DNA of 46,119 bases from the NCBI GenBank assembly GCA_022827885.1, contig JAJEIP010000080.1, positions 1 through 46,119 on the forward strand, written 5' to 3'. Positions 22,320 to 27,904 of the stretch are shown here, in pieces (the first letter of the stretch is position 1; each line of letters begins with the position of its first letter). The position numbers were made by a program, and so were the translations under genes. The notes beneath the pieces were generated by a model. It was given only the letters and a program-made list of their open reading frames with translations. It had not been told where the DNA came from and ran no database searches. The DNA comes from Candidatus Poribacteria bacterium. GTDB taxonomy: Bacteria > Poribacteria > WGA-4E > WGA-3G.

Positions 22320-22664
22320 TTAGTTAGCGACTTGCGCACTGAAACCTACATCTGTAACCGCTTTCACGAGCGCGTCTTTCTCAACCTTGTCCTTCTCAAT
22401 TTTCACCACAGCCTTATTTTCTTCCATAGAAACACTGACCACCTCAGTTACACCGGTAAGTTTTGTGAGTGCATCCTGCACCTTGCTGGTACACGCGCCT
22501 CACGTCATGCCGGTCACAGCCAGTGTAACTTCCTCAACGGTTGCCTCTGCCGTTTGAGTGGGTGCTGCTTCTTCTGCCTCTTTCTTTGCGGTGTCTGCAC
22601 ACGCCACCACAAACAGCACTGCTGCGAAGCAAACAAATAGCATGCTCACATTTAACTGACGCAT
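22320..22664 (-). CDS. HMA-domain lipoprotein, candidate selenoprotein (Sec55)
   Basis: Read through one in-frame TGA (22500-22502), this gene gives a 114-residue protein. It has a signal peptide ending in the lipobox VVAC (Cys22), an acidic linker, and a full heavy-metal-associated domain (about 44-114). The HMA metal motif GMTCxxC appears as GMT-U-GAC, with TGA at the first Cys and the second Cys kept (C58). After the TGA the frame continues as TSKVQDALTKLTGV, the usual helix 1, and ends in DVGFSAQV, the usual last strand, before a TAA. The start is the ATG at 22664, with AAGGGGA upstream; the longer upstream extension lacks signal-peptide character. It lies 160 bp after its paralogue. It probably binds soft metals such as Hg, Cu or Ag at the cell envelope. 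A frameshift or pseudogene would not place stops at the same Cys in both paralogues. Confidence 0.8.
22469..22502 (-). promoter_or_regulatory. Candidate bacterial SECIS element (HMA gene 1)
   Basis: Downstream of the TGA on the minus strand, 18 nt lead to the stem GTGCA/TGCAC with loop GGA. The loop begins 23 nt after the TGA and starts with GG. This position and loop match what is known for SelB-binding SECIS hairpins inside the coding region. Confidence 0.6.
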
Positions 22665-22782
22665 AAGTTTAATCCCCTTATGTGTACGGACGATCTCTCG
22701 ATCGCGCCTCTTCAACTTCAACGCTGACGGTTGAAACCTTATTCGATTGAGGCTGCAAAAAAATAGAGTTCGCAACCTACTC

Positions 22783-22813
22783 CTATAAAGAAAGGGCGGG
22801 TAACCCCACCCTT
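22783..22813 (-). terminator. Rho-independent terminator after HMA gene 2
   Basis: On the minus strand AAGGGTGGG and CCCGCCCTT pair (with one G-T) around a GTTA loop, followed by TCTTTAT. It lies 12 bp after the stop of the gene at 22825. Confidence 0.7.
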
Positions 22814-22824
22814 CCGATTCGACC

Positions 22825-23211
22825 TTATTGAGAGACTTCGGCACTGAAGCCGGCGCCTTGAACGGCAGAAGTGAGATCGGCAGACGTAACTTTGCCTTTC
22901 TTAACCTTCACAACAGCCGTGTTATCCGTTGAAGAAACGCTCACCACTTCAGAAACACCGGTGACTTTACTGAGTGCATCCTGCACCTTGCTGGTACACG
23001 CGCCTCACGTCATCCCTGTAACGTTCAGTGTAACTTCTTCAACGGCGGCTTCCATCATGTCGCCATCCGTCTTCATGTCGGATTCCATTTCAGTGCTTTC
23101 CATAGCAGTTGTAGTGGTTTCAGGCATCTCTGCTTTCTTGCTAATCAGACCACAGCCTACCATGAATACAAAAGCAATAAGACAAATAAGCGATAATCTT
23201 GCGATATGCAT
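22825..23211 (-). CDS. HMA-domain lipoprotein, candidate selenoprotein (Sec69)
   Basis: With the in-frame TGA at 23005-23007 read as Sec, the product is 128 residues. It has a signal peptide with lipobox MVGC (Cys20), a long Met/Thr/Asp/Glu-rich linker (about 21-58) and an HMA domain (about 58-128) with the motif GMT-U-GAC. The ~40 nt around the TGA are identical to the paralogue, while the flanking domain has diverged (LSKVTGVSEV against LTKLTGVTEV). The Met-rich linker could help bind copper or silver. AAGGAGG precedes the ATG, so translation starts efficiently. It has its own terminator. Confidence 0.8.
22974..23007 (-). promoter_or_regulatory. Candidate bacterial SECIS element (HMA gene 2)
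   Basis: The hairpin and spacing are identical to those of the paralogue: TGA, 18 nt, GTGCA-gga-TGCAC. The identity is greater than needed to keep the protein sequence, as expected if the RNA is also selected. Recent duplication is an alternative. Confidence 0.6.
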
Positions 23212-23282
23212 GGTTAACCTCCTTGAATTACTTAAATGTTATTTTAACACATATCAATTTTTTAGGCAAGATTTTTTTCGAA

Positions 23283-25958: not shown

Positions 25959-27290
25959 ATGGCATCAAAGAAACCGAATATTGTCGTCTACCTGTCCGAT
26001 GATCACGGCTGGGAATACCTCGGTTGTTACGGAAACGCCCAAATCCAAACCCCACATTTGGATAGTCTCGCCGAGGACGGAGTCCGTTTTACAAACGCGT
26101 TCACACCGACACCGACATGTGCGCCGTCTCGTTCCACCCTTTATACAGGATTGTATCCAGCACGACACGGGGCAATGGGCAATCATACGGAGTGCCACAC
26201 CCATCTTGCAGCCTTGCCGCAGACCCTACGAAGACTTGGGTATCGCGTGGCGATTGCCGGCAAAACGCATGTGAAACCGGACACCCTCTTCGATTTTGAG
26301 TATATCGGCGGTTTTCTGCCAAAGCGTCCCGAGCATAATCGGAAATATCGGGCAGAAGGACTTGATACCGCTCCAGTTGAACGTTTTCTTTCCAGCCATC
26401 GACAGGAGAATCCCGATCAACCCTTATGTCTCATTCTCGGTGATAGCAATCCGCACGTCACGTGGGAACCGAACAAAATTTATGATCCCGACACCTTGTC
26501 GCTGCCGCCCTATATCGCCGATACACCCATCGCCCGAAATGCGCTTGCGAACTACTATCAGGACATCACTACGATGGACACCCGTATCGGCGAAGTCGAT
26601 AAAATATTAGAGACACACGGGTATGCCGACAATACGCTCTTCATCTACACAACCGACCACGGTGCTGAGTGGCCCCATTGTAAGTGGACGCTGTATGACA
26701 CCGGTATCCGTTTGCCGTTTCTCGCGAAATGGCGCGGCGAGATTCCTGCTAACACTGTCTCCGATGCGATGATTTCGCATGTTGACTTCTTCCCGACGCT
26801 CATAGACCTCGCTGGCGGTGAACCCCTGGACGGTTTGGACGGGAGAAGTTTTAAAGAAGTCCTGCTCGGACGGCAAGCAACGTTCCGCGATAAAATCTAC
26901 GGCACGCATACCCGCGACGGAAACATGAATGTATTCCCACAGCGGTGTGTCCGCAATAACCGCTATAAATACATCTTGAACCTGATGCCTGACAATAGAT
27001 GGACAACCCACTTCACTGAGGTTGAAGGCATTCCAGAAAGCCACGCTGAGGTGTGGAACAGTTGGGTCCAAAAAGCCAAGACCGATCCGCAGACGGCACA
27101 ACTCGTTTATCTCACGCAACATCACCCTGTAGAGGAATTATATGATGTGACGACGGATCCGTCCGAGTTCAACAACTTGGCTTTCAAGACGGAAATGCGC
27201 CCAATTCTTGAAGAAATGCGTGCCGATGTCCGACACTGGATGCATGCACAAGACGATCAAGGGAGACGCGAAACATGGAATCTAAACTGA
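25959..27290 (+). CDS. Sulfatase (arylsulfatase family)
   Basis: This 443-residue protein is a type I sulfatase. The signature C-A-P-S-R at 54-58 supplies the Cys that is turned into formylglycine. The N-terminal metal site is in YLSDDHG near 11-17, and the second in TTDHGAEWPH near 230-239. There is no signal peptide, so it should act in the cytoplasm unless exported with a partner. It removes sulfate from a sugar or small molecule. The gene lies between PhyH and the candidate selenoprotein peroxiredoxin, overlapping the latter by 16 bp. It uses a TGA stop. Confidence 0.93.
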   Translation: MASKKPNIVVYLSDDHGWEYLGCYGNAQIQTPHLDSLAEDGVRFTNAFTPTPTCAPSRSTLYTGLYPARHGAMGNHTECHTHLAALPQTLRRLGYRVAIAGKTHVKPDTLFDFEYIGGFLPKRPEHNRKYRAEGLDTAPVERFLSSHRQENPDQPLCLILGDSNPHVTWEPNKIYDPDTLSLPPYIADTPIARNALANYYQDITTMDTRIGEVDKILETHGYADNTLFIYTTDHGAEWPHCKWTLYDTGIRLPFLAKWRGEIPANTVSDAMISHVDFFPTLIDLAGGEPLDGLDGRSFKEVLLGRQATFRDKIYGTHTRDGNMNVFPQRCVRNNRYKYILNLMPDNRWTTHFTEVEGIPESHAEVWNSWVQKAKTDPQTAQLVYLTQHHPVEELYDVTTDPSEFNNLAFKTEMRPILEEMRADVRHWMHAQDDQGRRETWNLN

Positions 27291-27904
27291 TGGACAATAG
27301 CGTACCGTTTACGCAAAAGGCTGATTTAGTGCTTTTTTCCGCGCTGTGTGCTGTGATTATTTGCTGCTGCCTTGCTTGTGGCGATGCAGAACGAACGACC
27401 CACATTACAACAGCACCGGAGGATGCCGCTGAAAAACTCCCTATGGGCGAAGGACTGGACCTCGGAGCACTCGCTCCCGAGTTCTCACTTCCAGATGGGG
27501 ATGGCGAATTTCACAGTCTTTCGGAATATCGCGGGCAGAAACTGGTTATTGTTTTTTATCGCACGGGGACATGAGGCGACTGTCGAACGCAACTCGGTGA
27601 GTTGCAGAAGGGGTATGAAGACATTCAAGCCGAGGGGGCCGAACTCGTTGCTGTCAGTGCCGATCCGATAACGACGGTTAACTCAACGCAGCAGACGCTT
27701 CAAATTACCTATCTGTTGCTTTCGGATGAAAAAACGAAGACAATAGAGGCGTATAATGTCGTTGACCCGAGTGAAATCGAGGTAGCACGTCCAGCGGTCT
27801 ATATTGTTAATCAAGATGGGAACATCGCGTGGAAATACCTTGATGCGAAGAGTGGTAAACGTATCGGGACTGAACCCATACTTGCACAACTAAAGAAATT
27901 TTAG
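27275..27904 (+). CDS. Peroxiredoxin-like (AhpC/TSA) lipoprotein, candidate selenoprotein (Sec100)
   Basis: Read through TGA at 27572-27574, the product is 209 residues. A hydrophobic N-terminal segment (about 19-34) ends in the lipobox-like CLAC (Cys35). The thioredoxin fold follows: APEFSLPDGDGEFHSLSEYR near 71-90, VIVFYRTGT-U-GDCRTQL near 91-107, ELVAVSAD near 121-128, and PAVYIVNQDGNIAWKY near 173-188. In the family, FYRGxWCPxC has the peroxidatic Cys where TGA stands here; the resolving-type Cys103 is kept (U-x-x-C). The two halves are in the same frame and neither is a complete domain alone. The start overlaps the sulfatase end, with GGGAG upstream. It probably reduces peroxides at the envelope. 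If TGA were a true stop, the 99-residue product would lack the whole active site. Confidence 0.82.
27572..27605 (+). promoter_or_regulatory. Candidate bacterial SECIS element (peroxiredoxin gene)
   Basis: A perfect 7-bp stem, GCAACTC/GAGTTGC (27589-27595 with 27599-27605), carries the loop GGT. The loop starts 21 nt after the TGA. E. coli fdhF has a GGU-containing loop 18 nt after its UGA, so both distance and loop are alike. Confidence 0.65.

Follow-up and report, generated by a model that had tools for sequence, protein, structure and literature searches.

Predicted selenocysteine at the metal-binding motif of tandem HMA-domain lipoproteins in sponge-associated Poribacteria

Several selenoproteins with a metal-binding domain of the HMA type are on record. 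A 2026 review (PMC13188914) lists the family NF041115, with a UxxU motif, together with a cation-transporting ATPase E1-E2 selenoprotein with a UxxC motif, and gives two to three selenocysteines (Sec) per protein, reached in a small subset of families, as the upper range. The 2008 GOS marine survey (PMC2398784) contains a MerP selenoprotein entry. In a sponge microbiome study (PMC5649159), SelA and SelB were found to be enriched in symbiont bins, for which no explanation was given, and our limited literature search retrieved no paper linking Poribacteria with 'selenoprotein'. Here, we followed up a prediction made from DNA sequence alone, which proposed two Sec-containing HMA lipoproteins and mentioned earlier HMA-type predictions from metagenomes; NF041115, the UxxC P-type ATPases and the marine MerP entry are such cases. 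HMA-type selenoproteins as such are already known, and the novelty of the present locus lies in the variant forms found in this order.

The window, a stretch of 46,119 nucleotides, is one entire contig (C111) of a sponge-associated Candidatus Poribacteria MAG (5.13 Mb, 97% complete). The two genes are arranged head to tail and comprise the following features:

Gene A, 22825..23211, minus strand: HMA-domain lipoprotein of 128 aa, predicted Sec at residue 69 (GMT-U-GAC), PF00403 at 40.7 bits with Cys substituted for Sec
Ribosome-binding site of gene A, 23217..23224, minus strand: AAGGAGGT, containing AAGGAGG, from sequence
In-frame UGA (predicted Sec codon) of gene A, 23005..23007, minus strand: residue 69, from sequence
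Predicted bSECIS hairpin of gene A, 22974..22986, minus strand: GTGCA-GGA-TGCAC, 18 nt 3' of the UGA
Gene B, 22320..22664, minus strand: HMA-domain lipoprotein of 114 aa, predicted Sec at residue 55 (GMT-U-GAC), PF00403 at 43.6 bits, HMA fold by AlphaFold, best solved match MerP
Ribosome-binding site of gene B, 22673..22679, minus strand: AAGGGGA, from sequence
In-frame UGA (predicted Sec codon) of gene B, 22500..22502, minus strand: residue 55, from sequence
Predicted bSECIS hairpin of gene B, 22469..22481, minus strand: GTGCA-GGA-TGCAC, 18 nt 3' of the UGA

Both genes share one layout, in which a ribosome site is followed by a hydrophobic leader that runs to a lipobox-like Cys. A linker of low complexity then leads to the HMA domain with the common stretch ...GMT-U-GAC-TSKVQDAL..., and both genes are terminated by TAA. 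The original prediction thus held in its essentials, namely a TGA at the first Cys of GMTCxxC, an HMA frame continuing to a normal stop, and lipoboxes with good ribosome sites in both genes; it had named no strand, and both genes are encoded on the minus one. The lipoboxes (FMVGC and FVVAC), read by eye from the sequence, are conserved as ...GC or ...AC after the hydrophobic stretch, and signal helix and lipobox Cys together mark the products as predicted bacterial lipoproteins with a putative lipid anchor. Their PF00403 scores lie above the gathering cut-off of 24.8 bits. Standard gene callers truncate such genes at the UGA; the ORFs that a caller would list here, 22332-22640 on the plus strand and 22500-22844 on the minus strand, are shadows and not genes, and a plus-strand reading of 22320-23211 was rejected as no HMA protein is encoded there. 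The pair is surrounded by genes with housekeeping or metabolic functions, none of which points to a metal. When the neighbourhood was compared across 18 loci, this context proved fixed, yet housekeeping and uninformative.

Each TGA had been predicted to be followed after 18 nt by the hairpin GTGCA-GGA-TGCAC, and exactly this distance was found at both genes. A scan of the 5.1 Mb genome for TGA-N12..22-GTGCAGGNTGCAC gave three matches, each at an HMA TGA site, and none for the reversed-pattern control; taken as a whole, the observation is far beyond chance. Of 117 distinct TGA sites, 111 have the hairpin intact (five stem pairs, G first in the loop), versus none of 17 Cys-codon matches (Fisher p ~7e-17, to be taken as indicative since the sites are related and not independent; the 17 include one false match to a lipobox). 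The remaining six TGA sites have lost the loop-closing pair alone, and the first loop base is G at all 117. Third codon positions within the stem (V, Q/R, A) have zero entropy over 100 sites; for the majority of third positions around them, the value is ~1 to 2 bits. Compensatory changes occur at two pairs, e.g. GTGCG-GTC-CGCAC and GTACA-GTC-TGTAC, with a covariation score reached by none of 500 shuffles, and RNAalifold returned this hairpin alone. With a GGA loop, a stem of 5-6 bp and the loop 23 nt after the UGA, the hairpin falls within the geometry of the bSECIS model (stem of 4-16 bp, loop of 3-9 nt with a G among its first two bases, distance of 16-37 nt between UGA and loop). Two observations were counted against it. 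The isolated hairpin of the window genes is marginal, at -6.2 to -7.0 kcal/mol versus the quoted bSECIS threshold of -7.5, and the unconstrained 56-nt folds of genes A and B reach -18.2 and -21.6 kcal/mol, but in a different, non-conserved structure, the 5' part of which a ribosome translating at the UGA would be expected to melt. A scan of the window with Rfam at the gathering threshold gave no match, as expected for an unlisted bSECIS. Because the hairpin is intact at TGA sites and not at Cys sites, with frozen third positions and compensatory changes, we read it as a predicted bacterial SECIS.

To follow the domain beyond the window, a profile built from these proteins was run over 85 genomes of the phylum. 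At least one HMA match with an in-frame TGA was present in 73 of 73 genomes of the order, spanning four families (profile search; manual count 68 + 5), and in most members of the window genome's genus the tandem pair recurs with the same genes around it. The TGA position alternates solely with Cys codons in paralogues; it corresponds to Cys in homologues and is flanked by conserved coding sequence, the pattern by which selenoproteins are recognised. Sequencing error, i.e. TGT or TGC misread as TGA, had been raised as an objection and is excluded because the TGA recurs at ~100 distinct orthologous sites in independent MAGs, including single-contig genomes. A further objection, that selB, selD and selC might be missing, fell as well: the window genome encodes tRNA-Sec (75.4 bits, above its cut-off), selB (350 bits), selA (601 bits) and selD (360 bits), the latter with an in-frame TGA of its own. 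The tRNA-Sec gene follows directly behind selB at a distance of 38 nt (L017:8372-10444, contig C136), with selA and selD on other contigs. Throughout the phylum, selB lies above its cut-off in 76 of 85 genomes and in 55 of the 56 good ones, and the one class-level relative of good completeness without selB (G004) shows no TGA-bearing HMA match.

Two individual loci deviate from the general picture. The second gene of the pair at L082 (G062) carries an in-frame deletion of ~10 residues that removes exactly the TGMTUGACTS motif together with the UGA, which is either a loss or an assembly artefact. In another class-level relative (G008), a divergent lipoprotein HMA with GMR-U-TGC is encoded on the minus strand near position 1588 of L136, with a strong hairpin (-19.6 kcal/mol) of quite another kind, which suggests that Sec use in HMA domains is older or arose independently.

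TGA does terminate other genes of the window, as predicted for 5048, 20831 and 27288, the last of which ends a sulfatase gene and overlaps the next ATG. Might the UGAs in genes A and B then be genuine stops as well, leaving pseudogenes or short truncated lipoproteins? We consider this highly improbable, given that across 73 genomes the HMA domain past the UGA has been kept both in sequence and in predicted fold, that the UGA is fixed at one codon, that the RNA hairpin is under selection and that the Sec machinery is present. Decoding of the UGA as some other residue, by reassignment or near-cognate suppression, is just as hard to believe, as the same stops are at odds with it, Trp is encoded by TGG, the codon exchanges only with Cys codons in paralogues and the Sec machinery is complete. 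Taking sequence, machinery, conservation and RNA constraint together, genes A and B are almost certainly selenoprotein genes.

The same signature was found in larger proteins. Poly-HMA proteins of relatives contain four or five HMA repeats in mixed composition:

L044: poly-HMA protein, three Sec and two Cys repeats
L084:1456-2673 (G076): poly-HMA protein, four Sec and one Cys repeats
L085, L086, L087: poly-HMA proteins, three Sec and one Cys repeats each

Here, the hairpin is present at every TGA repeat and lost at every Cys (TGT) repeat, often via a single synonymous change such as GTG to GTT in a Cys repeat of L044. Assignment of the poly-HMA proteins to HMA families was rejected, since several cut-offs were passed only because the repeats add up. 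The window genome itself holds a third HMA selenoprotein candidate (L025:85-1689, contig C121), in which a PSCyt1 cytochrome and a WD40 propeller precede a C-terminal HMA domain; TGA and the same hairpin are found in this genome and several relatives, while the counterparts in another family (L088, L089, L090) have TGC or TGT and no hairpin. Sec is not simply the lineage's version of every HMA protein, because the window genome also encodes ordinary Cys HMA domains, carried by an ATPase-like frame of 762 aa and a protein of 103 aa.

AlphaFold returned a confident HMA fold (beta-alpha-beta-beta-alpha-beta), in which the Sec residue would sit in the loop leading into helix 1. The best solved structural match is MerP (39% identity, 1.1 A), ATP7B and CopZ, also metal carriers, are among the best structural matches as well, and ATP7B and MerP were also matched by sequence profiles. 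From this we infer that the proteins are MerP-like binders of soft metals outside the cytoplasm. The main rival accepts genuine selenoproteins and sees in UxxC a redox centre at the cell envelope, engaged in selenenylsulfide/dithiol exchange or peroxide reduction, and not primarily a metal ligand. UxxC is indeed a classic redox motif, a redox function is regarded as probable for most selenoproteins that await characterisation (PMC13188914), and a Sec peroxiredoxin-like lipoprotein is encoded ~4 kb away:

AhpC/TSA-like lipoprotein, 27290..27904, plus strand: TGA at 27572-27574 (TGT-U-GDC), hairpin GCAACTC-GGT-GAGTTGC downstream

The original prediction had pointed to a third site, which is this TGA (UGDC); it has its own hairpin, the TGA is conserved in six relatives, and a Prx-like UxxC selenoprotein family has already been catalogued. 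For genes A and B, however, a redox role appears unlikely: the fold is HMA and not thioredoxin, the position of the motif, its GMT context and the best structural matches (MerP, ATP7B, CopZ) point to metal carriers, and up to five tandem domains fit binding capacity better than catalysis.

Soft-metal capture is favoured because of the extracytoplasmic location, the position within the metal site and the repetition of the domain, and the best joint explanation, which we hold to be probable, is that SelB and the hairpin direct Sec to the UxxC site of HMA domains in exported lipoproteins that capture a soft metal. SelB and Sec-tRNA-Sec would bind the hairpin 18 nt past each UGA, so that selenocysteine would be inserted at the first ligand position of the UxxC site; the proteins would then be exported, lipid-anchored and display their MerP-like domain outside the cytoplasm, where the selenolate/thiolate pair would most likely capture a very soft metal ion as buffer or relay. 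Candidate metals are Hg(II) or organomercury, Cu(I), Ag(I) and Cd(II). A search for a mer system yielded no curated MerA, with the matches below the cut-off; of these, one is a dihydrolipoyl dehydrogenase and the other an unassigned FAD-containing oxidoreductase. The search for MerT is uninformative as it gave no match anywhere, controls included. On a larger scale, the lipoprotein pairs might join with the poly-HMA proteins, which have up to four Sec domains, and with the cytochrome-linked Sec-HMA protein to form an envelope-wide, seleno-metallothionein-like metal sink of sponge-associated Poribacteria for mercury or another soft metal, the need for which would help to explain the SelA/SelB enrichment in sponge symbionts; we put this forward tentatively, as a rather doubtful extension.

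Sec is normally seen as a redox residue, and here a whole order keeps it at a predicted metal-ligand position, whether as single copies, in tandem or in multi-repeat proteins. The natural Cys controls within the same proteins offer a clean system to study what Sec adds at a soft-metal site, and candidate clients can now be named for the Sec machinery enriched in sponge symbionts (PMC5649159). The forms that are new are the order-wide UxxC lipoprotein pair, the cytochrome/WD40/HMA selenoprotein and the poly-HMA proteins that combine three or four Sec repeats with Cys ones; within the limited literature searched, four Sec per protein seem to lie above the two to three catalogued so far.

How does the pair compare with its closest described counterparts? 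NF041115, the UxxU metal-binding (seleno)protein of the putative mercuric reductase type, is likewise an HMA-like predicted selenoprotein with Sec in the metal motif, but it carries two Sec, whereas genes A and B encode UxxC lipoproteins that stay below its cut-off of 95 bits (50.5 and 63.2 bits) and are not members. The cation-transporting ATPase E1-E2 selenoprotein has the same UxxC spacing, located in its HMA domain, but is an integral-membrane P-type ATPase and not a small lipoprotein. NF045683, the MerT/CopZ fusion-like heavy metal transport selenoprotein, also combines an HMA/CopZ domain with Sec; genes A and B lack its MerT membrane part and, at 35-45 bits, fall short of its cut-off of 375. 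Closest in fold is MerP (TIGR02052, and also the GOS selenoprotein entry), an extracytoplasmic mercury-binding HMA domain and the best solved match of these proteins; genes A and B remain below the TIGR02052 cut-off of 92.55 bits (45.4 and 47.6 bits), are not members and, unlike MerP, have a lipobox and a linker and no adjacent mer genes.
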